Source: Pseudomonas sp. SCB32
GTDB taxonomy: Bacteria; Pseudomonadota; Gammaproteobacteria; Pseudomonadales; Pseudomonadaceae
Assembly (NCBI RefSeq): GCF_009189165.1
Contig: NZ_CP045118.1
Span: forward strand, 682,001-746,000
Direction of reading: 5' to 3'
Length of the DNA stretch: 64,000 nucleotides
Below the pieces are notes generated by a model. That model was not told where the DNA came from. It did not search any database and was given only the letters and a program-made list of their open reading frames with translations. The position numbers and the translations under genes are program-made. Shown here piece by piece: positions 25,587-40,044 of this stretch (positions are counted from its first letter, which is position 1; every line of letters begins with the position of its first letter).

Positions 25587-25650
25587 CGAATCCCCCAAAG
25601 GGGACTTCACGACACCGATACACCCCGCTCGATGTCTGCACGCGCGACTG

Positions 25651-25845
25651 GTCTCGTCGGCAGGTCTCCTGGCTGGCAGGTCCTCATCCAGCGCGGCCTT
25701 CCCGGTTTCCCAGTGGCCGGATCGACGGCAGCGGGCACTTGCCTGCCAGGCGATCGAGTTGCGCGGACTCGCTGCTTACAGTTGCGGGGGCAGCCACGGT
25801 TTTTCCGTGTTCCCTCTTCGGCTCCCGGATGCGTCGCCTTCAAGC
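25651..25845 (-). ncRNA. cobalamin riboswitch upstream of cobG
   Basis: On the minus strand the conserved elements appear in order: GAGGGAACACGG, CTGCCCCCGCAACTGTAAGC, the B12 box region with GCCACTGGGAAACCGGGAAG (25717-25698) and the 3' closing CCAGGAGACCTGCCGACGA (25672-25654). These match the adenosylcobalamin riboswitch consensus. It should repress cobG-H-I-J when cobalamin is plentiful. Confidence 0.92.
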
Positions 25846-25955
25846 AGCGAAGCGTCCTACGAGCACCGACGATGCGGGTATTATGCCTGCTTTGCCCGAG
25901 GGCGGAACAAGCCTGCCCGTCGGATCGATCGTCGCACCCCTTCAGAGGAATTCCC

Positions 25956-30339: not shown

Positions 30340-31074
30340 TCAGGGCAGTTCGCAAATTCGACAATATTCCGCCTGCAGTTCTTCCGCCAGCTTCCGCGCC
30401 CGCCCCAGCTTCACTGCGCCTCCCTCGATGTCTACCAGCACGCCTGGACAGGGCAGGGGCAGCAGCGCAGGCCAGTCGCGCAGGCGGCCGTCGGTGATGA
30501 CCAGCAGTCGCTGATGCTCACCCGGCTTCTGCCGTTGGCGTTTTTCCAGCCAGTCGCGCGCTTGCTGCAGTGCCTCGATCAGCGGCGTGCCGCCGCCCGC
30601 GCCGAGTTGTTCCAGCCAGTCCTGCAACTGCGTCGAGGCCTTCTGCCCCTGCCACAGCCAACGCGGTTGCGCGCCGGTAGCGTGCAGCACGGCGAGGCGC
30701 GCGCGTTGGCGATAGGCCTGTTCGAAGGTATCGGCAAGCAGTCCCTTCGCCTGGGCGAGGGCGCCGTGACGGCGGGTGCTGGCGGAGGCGTCGACTATCA
30801 CCAGCCAGAGCTCGCCGGGTTTGCGGCTGCGGGCGCGCAGTAGCAGGTCCGCGCGGCGTTGCGGGCGGCCGTTGCGCAGGGTGGCGGGCCAGTCGATGCG
30901 GCCGTGCGCACCCTGTTGGCGGGCGCCGTTGTGGCCGCTGGCGAGCAGGCCGGGTCGGGGGTTGGCATCCGCGCCGGGGGCCGGGCGCGGGCGGATGCTC
31001 AGGGCTTTTTTGGCCAGCCCGTCAGTTGCCGGCGTTCGCCCATGGCGACGCTCTGGGCGGGTAGCTCGCCCCAC
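30340..31074 (-). CDS. VWA-domain chelatase subunit (ChlD/CobT-like part), probably made by -1 frameshifting from the upstream AAA gene
   Basis: The open frame begins at a GTG inside the upstream gene, and no ATG, GTG or TTG lies between its entry point and the VWA domain. The protein has a von Willebrand A domain with the MIDAS motif DASAS (in LWLVIVDASAST) and a later VITDGRLRDWP. ChlD/CobT proteins couple an AAA ATPase to the large chelatase subunit, here CobN. Reading into this frame is explained by the slippery A AAA AAG at 31011-31005. The joined product would be about 557 residues. Confidence 0.8.
   Translation of the reverse strand: MGRATRPERRHGRTPATDGLAKKALSIRPRPAPGADANPRPGLLASGHNGARQQGAHGRIDWPATLRNGRPQRRADLLLRARSRKPGELWLVIVDASASTRRHGALAQAKGLLADTFEQAYRQRARLAVLHATGAQPRWLWQGQKASTQLQDWLEQLGAGGGTPLIEALQQARDWLEKRQRQKPGEHQRLLVITDGRLRDWPALLPLPCPGVLVDIEGGAVKLGRARKLAEELQAEYCRICELP
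30965..31011 (-). promoter_or_regulatory. candidate -1 programmed ribosomal frameshift signal
   Basis: On the minus strand, A AAA AAG (31011-31005) is in the reading frame of the AAA gene (codons CCA AAA AAG CCC TGA). Six bases later an eight-base perfect stem GCATCCGC / GCGGATGC (30998-30991 with 30972-30965) encloses 18 GC-rich bases that can themselves pair (CCGG/CCGG). A one-base backward slip enters the VWA frame and bypasses the TGA. Confidence 0.75.
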
Positions 31075-32012
31075 TGGCCTTCGCCATTGGAGGCGCCGGA
31101 CTGTTGCGGCGACTGGCTGGATGTCTGCGGCGGTTGCGGCTGCGCATTCTGTTGCGGCGGCGCATGGCGCCGGCGATGGGTCAGGGCGAAGTGCTCCACC
31201 GCGTCGATGTCCTGCGCTTCGATGGCGCTGGCGCCACGCCAGGCGGCATGGGCGCGGGCCGCGCGCAGCCAGACCAGGTCGGCGCGCAGGCCGTCGACGC
31301 CGGCGGCATGGCAGCGCTCGGCAATTTCATTCAGCGCCGTGTCATCCAGCGGAATCGCTGCGAGTCGCTGGCGTGCCTCGGCGCAGCGCTGCTGCAGGGC
31401 CAGTTGCGCGCCTTGCCACTGATCGAGGAAGGCCTGCGGATCGGCATCGAAGGCCAGCCGGCGGCGGACGATCTCGGCGCGCTCGGTCGGCGCCGGGGTG
31501 CCTTCCAGTTGCACCTTGAGGCCGAAGCGATCCAGCAGTTGCGGGCGCAATTCGCCTTCCTCGGGGTTCATCGTGCCGATCAGTACGAAGCGCGCCGGAT
31601 GGCTGTGGGACAGGCCGTCGCGCTCGATCAGGTTGACCCCGCTGGCGGCCACGTCGAGCAGCAGGTCGACGAGGTGGTCGGGCAGCAGGTTCACTTCATC
31701 CACATAGAGCACGCCGCCGTGGGCGTGGGCCAGCACGCCGGGGGAGAACTGCGCGCGGCCCTCGCCCAGTGCGGCGTCCAGGTCGAGCGTGCCGACGATG
31801 CGTTCCTCGCTGGCGCCCAGCGGCAGGGTGACGAAGCGTCCGCCGTCCAGCAGGTCGGCCACGCCGCGCGCCAGGGTGGACTTGGCCATGCCGCGTGGTC
31901 CTTCGATCAGCACGCCGCCAATGGCGGGGTCGATGGCCGCCAGGCACAGGGCCAGCTTCAGCTCATCGGCGCCGACGACGGCGGCCAGTGGGAAATGGGG
32001 AAGGGCGCTCAT
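30999..32012 (-). CDS. AAA+ chelatase subunit (ChlI/BchI-like), likely for cobalt insertion
   Basis: 337 residues from the ATG of MSALPHFPLAAVVG, set by family start and an upstream GGA-rich stretch. Walker A is GPRGMAKST at 38-46, Walker B GVLYVDEVN near 100-110, and sensor region IGTMNPEEGELRPQLLDRFGL. The last 40 residues are Gln/Pro-rich (PPQQNAQPQPPQTSSQ), like the linker of full ChlD proteins. It ends PKKP at a TGA inside a frameshift signal. With CobN nearby, a cobaltochelatase role is more likely than magnesium insertion. Confidence 0.88.
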   Translation of the reverse strand: MSALPHFPLAAVVGADELKLALCLAAIDPAIGGVLIEGPRGMAKSTLARGVADLLDGGRFVTLPLGASEERIVGTLDLDAALGEGRAQFSPGVLAHAHGGVLYVDEVNLLPDHLVDLLLDVAASGVNLIERDGLSHSHPARFVLIGTMNPEEGELRPQLLDRFGLKVQLEGTPAPTERAEIVRRRLAFDADPQAFLDQWQGAQLALQQRCAEARQRLAAIPLDDTALNEIAERCHAAGVDGLRADLVWLRAARAHAAWRGASAIEAQDIDAVEHFALTHRRRHAPPQQNAQPQPPQTSSQSPQQSGASNGEGQWGELPAQSVAMGERRQLTGWPKKP

Positions 32013-32167: not shown

Positions 32168-32302
32168 ATGCCGTCCAGCCTGTCCATCCAGTCCCTCGCC
32201 CGCCACGGTGCCATCGGCTCCGTGGCTGCTCGCGCGCAGGTTCTGGCCGCTGCTGCCGGCTATTTCTTCTATGGGTATTGGTTTAGCCAAAGGCGCGCCT
32301 GA
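32168..32302 (+). CDS. leader peptide 1 of the DAHP synthase gene (aromatic-rich, 44 residues)
   Basis: The ATG follows CGGAG at 6 bases. The peptide starts MPSSLSIQSLARHG and near its end has YFFYGYWF, seven aromatic residues in eight (Phe, Tyr and Trp codons together). A strong intrinsic terminator begins 48 bases after its stop, and the next real gene is DAHP synthase, the entry enzyme of aromatic biosynthesis. This is the layout of a transcription attenuator, although the peptide is long for a leader. Confidence 0.75.
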   Translation: MPSSLSIQSLARHGAIGSVAARAQVLAAAAGYFFYGYWFSQRRA

Positions 32303-32316
32303 TACCCCACAGGCGC
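32295..32316 (+). promoter_or_regulatory. hairpin overlapping the end of leader peptide 1
   Basis: A seven-base stem GCGCCTG / CAGGCGC (32295-32301 with 32310-32316) spans the leader stop codon, so a ribosome finishing the leader would open it. Downstream, GGGTCGCC (32328-32335) can pair with GGCAACCC (32362-32369) with one mismatch. That would break the terminator, so it is an antiterminator candidate. Confidence 0.45.
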
Positions 32317-32350
32317 CCTAGCAAGCAGGGTCGCCAACCAGACAGATTCA

Positions 32351-32388
32351 CGAAACCCCGGTCGGCAACCCGACCGGGGTTTTTGTTT
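32351..32388 (+). terminator. attenuator terminator before the DAHP synthase gene
   Basis: A 13-base perfect stem (32351-32363 with 32368-32380, AAACCCCGGTCGG) has a CAAC loop and is followed by TTTTTGTTTTT counted from the end of the stem. It stands between leader peptide 1 and the DAHP synthase gene, with no other gene ending here on the plus strand apart from the leader. Confidence 0.85.
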
Positions 32389-34380: not shown

Positions 34381-37300
34381 TCACTGCTCCTCGCTGTCCA
34401 CCAGCAGATTCTCCAGCACCTCCCGATACTCTCCCGCCTCCTCCCACAACCCGCGCTGCTGCGCTTCCACCAGGCGTTCGGCGATGTCGCGCAGGGCTTC
34501 GGGGTTGTGCTGGCGGATGAACTCGCGGGTGTCGTCGTCCAGCAGGTAGGCGTCGGCCAGCAGGCGGTACTGGTGGTCGTCCACCAGTTCGCTGGTGGCG
34601 TCGAAGGCGAACAGGTAGTCCACCGTCGCGGCCAGTTCGAAGGCGCCCTTGTAGCCGTGGCGCTTCATGCCGGCGATCCATTTCGGGTTCACCGCGCGGG
34701 CGCGCACCACGCGGCCGAGTTCTTCCTTCAGGGTGCGGATGCGCGGGTTGTCCGGCTGGCTGTGGTCGCCGTGGTAGCTGGAGAGCGACTGGCCCTGGAT
34801 AACCTCGGCGGCGGCCAGCATGCCGCCCTGGAACTGGTAGTAGTCGTTGGAATCGAGGATGTCGTGCTCGCGGTTGTCCTGGTTGTGCAGCACCGCCTGC
34901 AGGCCGGACAGGCGCTGGGCGAAGCGTTCGCGCGCCGGCGTGCCGTCGTCGCTGGCGCCGTAGGCGTAGCCGCCCCAGTTCAGGTACGCCTCGGCGAGGT
35001 CGGCCCGGCTGTCCCACTGGCGCGATTCGATCACGCCCTGCACGCCGGCGCCGTAGGCGCCGGGCTGGGCACCGAAGATGCGCCAGCCGGCCTGGCGGCG
35101 GGCCTCGTCGCTTTCCAGACCCTCGCTCAGCAGGCGTGCCTGATCGGCACGCACACGGGCGGCCAGCGGGTTCTGATCGTCCGGTTCATCCAGCGCGGCG
35201 ACGGCCTGCACGGCCGCGTCGAACAGGCGGATCAGGTTGGCGAAGGCGTCGCGGAAGAAGCCGGAAACCCGCAGCGTGACGTCCACTCGCGGACGGTCGA
35301 GCAGGGTGACCGGCAGGATCTCGAAGTCTTCCACGCGCTGGCTGCCGGCCTGCCATACCGGGCGTACGCCGAGCAGCGCGAGTGCCTGGGCGATGTCGTC
35401 GCCGCCGGTGCGCATGGTCGCCGTGCCCCACACCGACAGGCCGAGCTGGCGCAGGTGGTCGCCGTGGTCCTGCAGGTGGCGTTCGAGCAGGCGGCTGGCG
35501 GACTGGAAGCCGAGGCGGAACGCGGTGGGTGTGGGCAGGTTGCGCACGTCCACGGTGAAGAAATTGCGCCCAGTGGGTAGCACGTCGACCCGCCCGCGAC
35601 TGGGCGCGCCGCTGGGGCCGGGCGGAACGAAGCGGCCGTCGAGGCCGGCGAGCAGGTGGCCGATTTCGCTGGCGCCGCAAGCATCCAGGGTCGGTGCGAT
35701 CTGCTGGTGAAGTTGCGTGAGGACTGCCGCGCTGGCGCTTCCGGGCGCGCTGGCGGAGCCGTCGATCAGTCGCAGGGCGAGCAGCTCCAGGCGCTCGCGG
35801 GTGTCGCCATTGCTGCGCCAGGGCTCATCGCCTACGGCGAGAAGCACTGCGGGGCGCGGGCCTTCCCAGGGGTCGGCAAAGGCCTCGTCCAGCGGGTCGC
35901 GACCCAGTTGCAGGTCCTCGCTGATCGCGCGCAGCAGGCTGGCGTTGCCACCGCGTCCATCGCCGCGCGGGATGCGCACCAGCGACAGCAGCGTATCGCG
36001 GCGCAGCTCGCCCACGGGGGATTCGCCAAATACATGCAGCCCATCGCGAATCTGCGATTCCTTCAGGTCGCAGAGGTAGGCGTCCAGCTGCGGCAGCCAG
36101 CTTTCCGGATCGTCGCTCAGCTGCAAGCCCAGCTCGCGGTCCAGCGAGGTTTCGCGCACCAGTGCGAGGATGTCGCCACGCAGTTCGCTGGCGCGGCGCG
36201 GGTCGAGCAGGGAGGCGTCGTAGTACTCGTCGGCCAGGCGTTCGAGGTCGCGCAGCGGGCCGTAGTTTTCCGCACGGGTCAGCGGCGGCATCAGGTGGTC
36301 GATGATCACCGCCTGGGCGCGGCGCTTGGCCTGGGCGCCCTCGCCGGGATCGTTGACGATGAACGGGTAGAGATTCGGCAGCGCGCCGAGGATCGCGTCC
36401 GGCCAGCATTCCTCGGAAAGCCCCACGCCCTTGCCCGGCAGCCATTCGAGGTTGCCGTGCTTGCCGACGTGGATCACTGCGTCGGCGCCGAACACCTCGC
36501 GCAGCCAGAAGTAGAAGGCGAGGTAGCCGTGGGGTGGCACCAACGACGGGTCGTGGTAGATCGCCGCGGCGTCGAGCTGGTAGCCGCGCGCCGGCTGGAT
36601 TCCGACGAAGCCGAGGCCCAAGCGCAGGCCGGCGATCATAATCCGCCCGCTGCGGAACATCGGGTCCTGCTGCGGCGCGCCCCAGCGTTCGCGCACGGCT
36701 TGCTGGTTGGCTTCGGGCAGGCGCGCGAAACAGGCAAGGTAGTCGTCCAGCGCCAGGCTCTGCGCGCAGGGGCGCAGGTCAAGGCTATCGAGGTCGTTGC
36801 TGACGCCGCCGAGCAGTTGCTGTATCAGCGCGGTGCCGGAATCGGGCAGGCCGGCGACAGGATAACCCTGGGTCTCCAGCGCGCGCAGGATGTTCAGCGC
36901 GGCGGCCGGCGTGTCGAGGCCGACCCCATTGCCGATGCGCCCGTCACGGGTCGGGTAGTTCGCCAGGATCAGCGCCACGCGCTTGTCGGCATTGGCCTTG
37001 CGCGCCAGCAGCATCCAGCGCCGCGCCAGCTCGGCGACGAAGTCCATGCCCGGCAGATGCGGCAGGTAGCAGACCACGTCGCTCTGGCTGCGCTCGCTGC
37101 GCCAGGCCAGGCCCTTGAAGCTGATCGGCCGGGTGATGATGCGGCCATCCAGCTCCGGCAGCGCGATGTGCATGGCCAGGTCGCGCGGGCCGAGGCCCTG
37201 CGGGTTGGCGCGCCAGAGGTCATGATTGTCCAGCGAACAGATAGCTTGCAGCACCGGCACGTCGCGCTTGAATGGCCGGTCTTGCGGCGCTTCCGGATTC

Positions 37301-38112
37301 GACTGGGCGAAGCCGGTGGCGTTGATGATCAGCTCGGCGTCGGCGCTATCGAGCAGGGCTTCCACCGCGTCCAGGCAGGCGATTTCCTTGAGGCTGGCCA
37401 CAGCGATGGGCAGCGGGTTGATGCCATGGGCACGCAGGCGTTCGCAGAAGGTGTCGATGAAGCCGGTGTTCGCCGCTTGCAGGTGCGTGCGGTAGAACAG
37501 CAGCGCGGCGACGGGGCACTCGGGGGCCCAGTCGGCCTGCCAGCGAGCGAGGTCGCAGCTGCCGAGCTGGGGGTGATAGAGCGCCACTCGGGGCAGTGTC
37601 CGAGGTTCGCTCCAGGCGTAGTCGCGTTGCAGATGGCGGTTGGCAAGACAGGCGAAGAACTGCCGGGCGTTGTCCATGCCACCCTGACGCAGGTACTGCC
37701 AGAGGCGCTCGGTATCCTGCGGCGGGACGCTGCAGAGGGCGGTGAGTTCGGGGTCGGGCTTGTCGTCGCCAGGCACCGCGATCAGCGTGGCGCCACGCTC
37801 GGCCAGCGCCGCCAGCTGCTCCATGCCGTAGCGCCAGTAACCGACGCCGCCGTGCACCGAGATCAGGATGACCTTGGCGTGCTGCAGCACCTCGTCGACG
37901 TAGAGGTCTACCGAGGCGTGGTTCTGCAGCTGCATGGGGTTGGCCAGGCGCAGGCTCGGGTAATTCTCCGGCAGCTCGCGGGCGGCCTCGGCGAGCAGCG
38001 CCAGGTGCGAATCGCCGCTGCAGAGGATCACCAGCTCGGCGGGTGTCTGGGCCAGGTGGGCGATGCCGTCGTCGGGGACGAAGCCGCCGGGTTGGGTGCG
38101 CAGCAGGTGCAT
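34381..38112 (-). CDS. cobN: cobaltochelatase large subunit CobN
   Basis: 1243 residues, full length for CobN. It inserts cobalt into hydrogenobyrinate diamide with an AAA/VWA partner pair, here very likely the products at 30340-32012. Conserved CobN/BchH stretches include HVGKHGNLEWLPGKGVGLSEECWPDA near 550, GEGAQAKRRAQAVIIDHLMPP, and the C-terminal KWIAGMKRHGYKGAFELAATVDYLFAFDATS. The start ATG (MHLLRTQPGGF) is 61 bases after cobW, with a REP hairpin between. It is placed under the upstream riboswitch. Confidence 0.95.
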   Translation of the reverse strand: MHLLRTQPGGFVPDDGIAHLAQTPAELVILCSGDSHLALLAEAARELPENYPSLRLANPMQLQNHASVDLYVDEVLQHAKVILISVHGGVGYWRYGMEQLAALAERGATLIAVPGDDKPDPELTALCSVPPQDTERLWQYLRQGGMDNARQFFACLANRHLQRDYAWSEPRTLPRVALYHPQLGSCDLARWQADWAPECPVAALLFYRTHLQAANTGFIDTFCERLRAHGINPLPIAVASLKEIACLDAVEALLDSADAELIINATGFAQSNPEAPQDRPFKRDVPVLQAICSLDNHDLWRANPQGLGPRDLAMHIALPELDGRIITRPISFKGLAWRSERSQSDVVCYLPHLPGMDFVAELARRWMLLARKANADKRVALILANYPTRDGRIGNGVGLDTPAAALNILRALETQGYPVAGLPDSGTALIQQLLGGVSNDLDSLDLRPCAQSLALDDYLACFARLPEANQQAVRERWGAPQQDPMFRSGRIMIAGLRLGLGFVGIQPARGYQLDAAAIYHDPSLVPPHGYLAFYFWLREVFGADAVIHVGKHGNLEWLPGKGVGLSEECWPDAILGALPNLYPFIVNDPGEGAQAKRRAQAVIIDHLMPPLTRAENYGPLRDLERLADEYYDASLLDPRRASELRGDILALVRETSLDRELGLQLSDDPESWLPQLDAYLCDLKESQIRDGLHVFGESPVGELRRDTLLSLVRIPRGDGRGGNASLLRAISEDLQLGRDPLDEAFADPWEGPRPAVLLAVGDEPWRSNGDTRERLELLALRLIDGSASAPGSASAAVLTQLHQQIAPTLDACGASEIGHLLAGLDGRFVPPGPSGAPSRGRVDVLPTGRNFFTVDVRNLPTPTAFRLGFQSASRLLERHLQDHGDHLRQLGLSVWGTATMRTGGDDIAQALALLGVRPVWQAGSQRVEDFEILPVTLLDRPRVDVTLRVSGFFRDAFANLIRLFDAAVQAVAALDEPDDQNPLAARVRADQARLLSEGLESDEARRQAGWRIFGAQPGAYGAGVQGVIESRQWDSRADLAEAYLNWGGYAYGASDDGTPARERFAQRLSGLQAVLHNQDNREHDILDSNDYYQFQGGMLAAAEVIQGQSLSSYHGDHSQPDNPRIRTLKEELGRVVRARAVNPKWIAGMKRHGYKGAFELAATVDYLFAFDATSELVDDHQYRLLADAYLLDDDTREFIRQHNPEALRDIAERLVEAQQRGLWEEAGEYREVLENLLVDSEEQ

Positions 38113-39345: not shown

Positions 39346-39462
39346 GGATCTCGCGAGCTAGAGCAGAACAAGGCAAAAATCGGGGCGGGAGCGGAGTTTA
39401 CGTCAGTAAATGAGCATCCCGAGCCGGTTTTTAACGCAGTTATGCCGACGCGCAGCAGATCG
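39346..39462. repeat. long imperfect palindromic dispersed repeat, copy 1
   Basis: About 117 bases. A core GTTTAC...GTAAAT dyad is flanked by matching outer blocks (AGCAGAACAAGGC on the left, AACGCAGTTATGCCGACGCGCAG on the right). The same blocks recur at 52195-52316. On the minus strand it lies between the cobalamin riboswitch and cobW, so it is part of the 5' leader RNA. Confidence 0.8.
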
Positions 39463-39473
39463 AAAACCAGTCA

Positions 39474-39630
39474 CGAGGCAGGTCTCCTGGCTCACAGCCC
39501 TTGATTGTCCTTTCGCCTTCCCGCCGTCGTCGGCAGTGGCTCGTGAAAGGACAGGCTGTTCACAGTTGCGGGGGCAGCCGTGGCGCATCCGAAGATTTCC
39601 ACGTTCCCTCTTAGCTCCGGCCAGCGCCGG
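39474..39630 (-). ncRNA. cobalamin riboswitch upstream of cobW-cobN
   Basis: On the minus strand: GAGGGAACGTGG, GGCTGCCCCCGCAACTGTGAAC, GCCACTG...GGGAAGGC and CCAGGAGACCTGCC appear in the riboswitch order. The gap from the 3' end to the cobW ATG is about 250 bases, longer than usual because the palindromic repeat lies in it. Confidence 0.9.
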
Positions 39631-39742
39631 AGAACCTCGAAGGGCAGAAGGCTACGCAGCGATGGCGAGGCGGTCAATCGCCGGGGATCGGTTGCCGCGC
39701 GGTTGACGCTCGCGGGGCTTCGTGGTCAGCTAGCGCGGTTTC

Positions 39743-39928
39743 AGGTGTCTCGCGCCGTCGTGTGCGAGGTGAAACGGGAAGCCGGTGCGTCCGCAAGGAC
39801 CAGTCCGGCGCTGCCCCCGCAACGGTAAGCGATTGAAGGGTCATCGGTAGCCACTGTGCTCGCGCATGGGAAGGCTGACCCGCCCGGCCGCATCGGCCGA
39901 CATCGCAAGCCCGGAGACCGGCCTGGAA
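39743..39928 (+). ncRNA. cobalamin riboswitch upstream of cbtB-cbtA
   Basis: Plus strand: AGGTGAAACGGGAAGCCGGTG, CTGCCCCCGCAACGGTAAGC, GTAGCCACTG, CATGGGAAGGC and CGGAGACCGGCCTGG all match the consensus. It faces away from the cobW riboswitch, so a 400-base interval carries two back-to-back B12 sensors. Confidence 0.93.
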
Positions 39929-40044
39929 TCCTTCGTTTTGGCAAACCCGCGGTGGGCGGGCGCAGGCCGTGGCGCAGCCGATTCCGGCGCGTTCGAATGC
40001 GTTCAACCTCTGCGTTCTCTACTCAAGTTTCAGAGGGAACGTTC

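Follow-up and report, generated by a model that had tools for sequence, protein, structure and literature searches.

The chelatase genes that stand closest to the one described here are the frameshifted chlD genes (fs-chlD), a frameshift family that has already been described in print together with its slip site, and with Pseudomonas named. Antonov 2013 (PMC3711429) groups 23 genes in a −1 magnesium chelatase cluster and names Pseudomonas; in its reporter assays three cassettes gave 63, 40 and 10 percent frameshifting, the assayed cassettes carrying runs of 7, 9 and 11 As and not A6G, and it notes that RefSeq annotated such loci as two genes. Atkins 2016 (PMC5009743) gives A_AAA_AAR as the site in Pseudomonas and prints the stem of P. 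protegens, while Kuznetsov 2022 (PMC9227772), where Antonov 2020 (MBE) is cited, describes the chlD frameshift as permitting the small and the medium chelatase subunits to be made from one gene. The original prediction for the DNA analysed here had stated that frameshifted chlD-type genes had been proposed before, and the cited parts of these publications (PMC3711429, PMC5009743), where Pseudomonas is named, bear this out.

The dnaX gene of E. coli resembles the gene of the present locus in combining an A_AAA_AAG site with a downstream hairpin and in yielding a short and a long subunit (gamma and tau) from one gene; in dnaX, however, the shift leads to the short product, whereas here it would lead to the long one, an arrangement that Atkins 2016 (PMC5009743) presents as the rarer, occurring in a few dnaX genes. 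An upstream stimulator of the dnaX type, i.e. an AGGAG-like or Shine-Dalgarno-like element, was not seen by eye at positions 31030-31012 of this one sequence. The CobS and CobT proteins (TIGR01650 and TIGR01651) are likewise the small and medium partners of CobN, but they belong to different families.

All coordinates below are positions in the window, i.e. the whole 64,000-nt stretch of DNA that has been analysed, and “the family” refers to the Pseudomonadaceae. The window gene has in common with the fs-chlD genes the AAA and VWA open reading frames that overlap in −1, the A_AAA_AAR site and the downstream hairpin, and the window genome likewise has CobN and no separate small-subunit gene; we therefore place it among the fs-chlD genes by the overlap, the heptamer, CobN, the missing small-subunit gene and the downstream RNA structure, the last of which is weaker in eight divergent copies and is outcompeted by another predicted fold in a 72-nt piece. 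The stem quoted for P. protegens in Atkins 2016 (PMC5009743) has the same GCATCCGC and GCGGATGC arms; the continuous stem of the window is the shorter of the two, and nothing essential differs from fs-chlD. Judged from sequence comparison, the window most probably carries (with a probability of roughly 0.92) an fs-chlD cobaltochelatase gene of the aerobic B12 pathway, where one locus would give a short and a long subunit through −1 slippage. No assay of this particular gene was found in the literature searched. The features of the locus are the following:

30999..32012, minus strand: zero-frame open reading frame of the AAA (ChlI-like) subunit, 337 aa (from the sequence and the list of open reading frames)
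31005..31011, minus strand: slippery heptamer A AAA AAG (from the sequence and its conservation in the family)
30999..31004, minus strand: spacer CCC TGA of 6 bases, containing the stop of the AAA gene (from the sequence)
30991..30998, minus strand: 5' arm of the putative stimulatory hairpin, GCATCCGC (from sequence, pairing, covariation and folding)
30965..30972, minus strand: 3' arm of the same hairpin, GCGGATGC (from sequence, pairing, covariation and folding)
30340..31008, minus strand: −1 frame extension, i.e. linker and VWA domain (ChlD/CobT-like C-terminus), 222 aa after the shift
31072..31074, minus strand: GTG, candidate start of the VWA frame, made by the zero-frame codons CAG TGG (Gln-Trp)
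34381..38112, minus strand: cobN, the large subunit of the same chelatase (TIGR02257, 1747.6 bits, over the cut-off)

The AAA gene runs on the minus strand from the ATG at 32012, which is preceded by CAGGAAA, to the TGA at 30999, and its final codons are CCA AAA AAG CCC TGA, so that W P K K P forms the C-terminus of the protein. Relative to the AAA gene, which it overlaps, the VWA frame is −1, and it stays open to 30340; the joined AAA-VWA product would be composed of 335 + 222 = 557 residues. The original prediction had placed the heptamer at 31011-31005, followed by a six-base spacer with the TGA and an eight-base perfect stem, and had given product sizes of 337 and about 557 residues; the three elements are correct to the base, the VWA frame is exactly −1 as it stated, and both sizes agree with the computed ones. 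The corresponding locus of P. aeruginosa is the one that we take to bear the locus tags PA2941/PA2942.

The AAA part matches NCBIfam TIGR02442 with 415 bits, its best stretch covering profile positions 88-340 and its score lying below the whole-protein cut-off of 779, and TIGR02030 (NCBIfam) with 336 bits; its Pfam matches are AAA_5, AAA_lid_2 and Mg_chelatase, and its PDB matches are the BchI/ChlI structures 1g8p, 8osf and 6l8d. The VWA part matches the same TIGR02442 with 75 bits at profile positions 434-640, as well as Pfam VWA_2 and PDB 2x31 (BchD). Thus, from the profile and structure matches, the two open reading frames resemble one ChlD-type protein that is split by a change of frame in its linker.

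The locus is surrounded by B12 genes: a CobW gene is located upstream of cobN, with a cobalamin riboswitch upstream of it, and the other flank contains CobG, precorrin-8X methylmutase, a CbiE/CbiT protein and CbiD, so that the chelatase is most likely one for cobalt and not a chlorophyll enzyme. A DAHP synthase gene on the plus strand sits between cobN and the chelatase gene. Three cobalamin riboswitches occur in the window, at 39460-39654 (minus strand), 39726-39940 (plus strand) and 25642-25885 (minus strand), two of them back to back; separately, the Rfam P15 Pseudomonas sRNA is found at 32260-32380 on the plus strand, i.e. on the strand opposite to the chelatase gene and directly upstream of it.

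The heptamer by itself is unremarkable, with AAAAAAG occurring four times in the window against 1.98 expected and at least four times in 15 of 100 shuffles; it is conservation that sets the signal apart from chance. We have examined 145 Pseudomonadaceae loci with an AAA match, one per genome and the window's own among them; 34 of the 179 AAA-positive genomes of the family are outside this set, and three loci (L146-L148), where the AAA match was not kept, were excluded from the heptamer count. Two loci (L024 and L136) are unreadable, their contigs ending before the shift site, which leaves 143 readable sites; at 142 of these the zero-frame slippery heptamer is present, as AAAAAAG in 141 and as AAAAAAA in one. 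The VWA part is matched in 141 of the 143 readable loci, the contigs of L026 and L137 ending after the heptamer and ahead of the VWA part; 140 of these have it in −1, and L096 has it in another frame. The AAA stop is located 3 nt past the heptamer in 138 of the 140 loci and immediately after it in two.

Among the named genome loci with a VWA part, 78 of 80 have the heptamer with the VWA part in −1, with 29 of the 80 duplicating sequences already included in the 145-locus count. The conservation of the heptamer that the original prediction had put forward as a check is thus borne out in both sets (142/143 and 78/80). Three loci are irregular: L096, the sole readable family site that lacks the heptamer, shows a changed A-run and has its VWA part in another frame; the named locus L222 keeps the heptamer, its AAA match being split between frames upstream; and the named locus L224 combines a changed A-run with an AAA match split between frames. 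These three may stem from faulty assembly or from genuine loss.

In 132 joined genes, the fraction of same codons reaches its peak at the 12-codon window of the shift (0.83, against 0.55 for the median window). Elsewhere in these genes, there is a single six-A run in 220,621 bases, and AAA makes up 31 percent of the lysine codons (386/1242). The joined frames are free of stops in all 132 genes examined. Frame-disrupted genes being common, a pseudogene or a sequencing error might be suspected behind such a locus, but 140 of the 145 family loci share this architecture, and no stop interrupts the −1 frame past the shift in the 132 examined; by this recurrence we have ruled the explanation out, and its probability is negligible.

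In the window, positions 30998-30991 pair with 30972-30965 in 8 of 8 pairs. When the hairpin is folded in isolation, this stem is the best predicted fold, with an energy of −20.0 kcal/mol (z −2.23; 5 of 200 shuffles are as stable), and in a 72-nt piece a different, competing structure is predicted to be the best (z −1.0; 34 of 200 shuffles are as good). The counts of the stem refer to 130 of the 140 loci, leaving aside the eight divergent copies and the two loci where the heptamer is followed at once by the stop, and the partner arm is taken as the best-pairing 8-mer downstream; the 8-base arms pair at all 8 positions in 123 of these 130 close relatives, at 7 in five and at 6 in two. The 38-nt hairpin has a mean z of −3.9 over 132 loci, and its first pair is formed 5 or 6 nt past the heptamer in 132 of 132. 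The eight divergent copies of the family (L138-L145), with AAA parts about 56-58 percent identical, keep the heptamer, and a comparable hairpin is absent from them.

Covariation was measured on 103 distinct sequences in a fixed register of 11 pairs. One covarying pair occurs as CG in 74, UA in 15 and UG in 14 of the 103 sequences, and cells with both sides changed number 19, against a shuffle mean of 5.3. The paired percentage of 88.9 is only a slight excess over the 87.6 of the shuffles, and it drops to at most 60.3 percent when the partner is slid; a slide of +2 yields more double-changed cells (43), yet only 40.5 percent of its cells are paired. Two inner pairs of the 11 fail to form in 49 and 61 of the 103 sequences, and the RNAalifold consensus retains the outer six pairs. 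The expectation that the stem would be kept in relatives has therefore held, with covariation in its favour, while the perfect eight-pair stem that had been predicted is one form of a hairpin whose consensus consists of the outer six pairs.

Slippage of the RNA polymerase on the A-run, in place of the ribosome, has also been considered, as poly-A runs are capable of it and as the efficiency rose with the length of the run in the cassettes of Antonov 2013 (PMC3711429). Here, though, the run consists of six As followed by G, where the cited parts of Antonov 2013 (PMC3711429) list more than 7 As and those of Atkins 2016 (PMC5009743) give runs of 9 for bacterial slippage, and the zero-frame phase with a hairpin at 5-6 nt is that of a ribosomal −1 signal. 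Transcriptional slippage has accordingly been rejected, the A-run being too short, and we regard it as extremely improbable.

The other route to a VWA product is a start of its own. The nearest start in the VWA frame of the window is the GTG at 31074, 76 bases inside the AAA gene. In 52 of 140 loci the VWA frame has no ATG, GTG or TTG, the open frame having been searched to 60 nt past the heptamer, and in 53 of 140 a −1-frame stop occurs within the 60 nt before the heptamer. An NTG is found 63 bases ahead of the heptamer in the VWA frame of 77 loci, with AAGG before it in 63 of the 77, and at this site the zero frame encodes Gln-Trp (QW) in 120 of the 140; the xW-G motif is also seen in the single-ORF relatives introduced below, which need no start. 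The original prediction that the VWA gene keeps no conserved start therefore holds for the 52 loci that have none, and has to be qualified for the 77 with the NTG.

These counts bear on a reading as two genes, where the VWA protein would arise on its own, through internal initiation or translational coupling, from the GTG or ATG about 63 bases before the A-run. Some independent initiation could take place in the 77 loci with the NTG, 63 of which have the AAGG, and Antonov 2013 (PMC3711429) allows that coupling and shifting may co-occur in some other gene clusters. Against this, the start is missing from 52 loci and the frame is closed before the heptamer in 53, the NTG follows from the conserved Gln-Trp, the AAGG of the window is just 3 nt away from the GTG, and the conserved heptamer and hairpin would be left unexplained. 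An independent VWA start across the 140 loci has thus been judged a by-product of the Gln-Trp codons, and separate initiation is not the general mechanism; we consider the two-gene reading very unlikely. The −1 frameshift, on the other hand, as it had been originally proposed, is supported by what is seen at the level of sequence: the signal itself, its conservation, its covariation and the lack of a universal VWA start.

With regard to the supply of subunits, a single ChlI-like place is seen in the window genome at E <= 1e-40. Neither the CobS nor the CobT profile is matched over its cut-off, with one partial match of 24.5 bits to CobS and no match to CobT, so that the enzyme is not assigned to the CobST-type chelatases; no other recognised small or medium subunit is seen in the window genome. 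Among 298 family genomes, the AAA gene is found in 179 and CobN in 182, CobN co-occurring in 179 of the 179 AAA-positive genomes. The three genomes with a CobN match where the AAA gene was not found are G028, G144 and G047, of which G028 and G144 are, judging from the E-values, probably the two below the CobN cut-off. CobS is over its cut-off in none of the 298, and CobS-like matches below the cut-off occur in six, three of which (G011, G031 and G245) also carry the chelatase AAA gene.

In one locus (L113, genome G219, bases ~100-150) cobN runs into the AAA gene without a stop, in an open frame of 1582 aa that looks like a fusion of CobN with the AAA part, and the shift site downstream of it is intact; in 6 of 13 other loci compared with it, the cobN TGA overlaps the AAA ATG.

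The window genome contains 67 tRNA places, which have been covered by 30 loci and 17 stretches; ARAGORN reports tRNA-Lys at two of them, both with the anticodon UUU. In E. coli, A_AAA_AAG is described as especially shift-prone, with a single lysine tRNA for AAA and AAG (Atkins 2016, PMC5009743).

Outside the family, we have searched a phylum sample of 398 genomes, of which 60 are positive, 16 in the family and 44 outside it; 43 of the 44 have been read. Seven chlD-type genes of the same class (L262, L263 and L265-L269) have A AAA AAA, a TGA ending six bases on and the VWA part in −1, whereas six relatives (L246, L252, L259, L260, L261 and L264) have an unshifted, single-ORF AAA-VWA gene; CobN is present in all 13 genomes. 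The genomes with the shifted gene include two with strong CobS-like matches below the cut-off (G544 and G486) and two with weaker ones (G538 and G607), so that a CobS-like protein can be present alongside a shifted gene. The six single-ORF genomes lack both a further ChlI-like place and any CobS-like match at E <= 1e-12; the need for a short product of its own is thus not evident in every case.

The single-ORF relatives favour a reading where the long product alone matters and the short AAA protein is a by-product of incomplete shifting. Such a reading would leave the family-wide retention of the zero-frame stop and the slip site as an odd route to the long form alone, and it sits badly with the known Mg- and Co-chelatases, which have separate small and medium subunits according to Kuznetsov 2022 (PMC9227772); we hold it to be unlikely. 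A zero-frame scan of the six single-ORF linkers for XXXYYYZ returned GGGAAAG in L252 alone and nothing in the other five. The linker of L252 (genome G449, same order) contains, at about base 2568, A7 and then, in the +1 frame, GTC TGA, and L264 contains A7 with a +1-frame stop two codons later, which may be due to chance since the gene is A-rich and has many A runs. It is a doubtful suggestion that the roles might be reversed in some relatives, slippage in the other direction at the A7 of L252, and perhaps of L264, giving the short AAA subunit, while the remaining single-ORF relatives would use an undescribed route to a small subunit or do without one.

In the preferred reading of the window gene as a frameshifted chlD gene, ribosomes that stay in the zero frame would end at the TGA at 30999 and release the 337-residue AAA (ChlI/CobS-like) subunit, while some ribosomes would slip back by one base on A AAA AAG, aided by the hairpin, which begins six bases further on, and by the decoding of AAG through tRNA-Lys(UUU) alone; the slipped ribosomes would continue to the 557-residue AAA-VWA (ChlD/CobT-like) subunit, and both products would join CobN for the insertion of cobalt. 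We infer the slippage in this organism, its rate and the assembly of both products from these elements.

As the mechanism is published, what is added here is a dense record of conservation and covariation, together with a defined set of unshifted relatives, where the missing small subunit can be sought and which is the part that merits a further look. In the Pseudomonadaceae examined, no other stretch of the joined gene is as codon-conserved as the signal composed of heptamer, spacer and hairpin, and the locus illustrates how a single place in the genome is able to supply both AAA partners of CobN.
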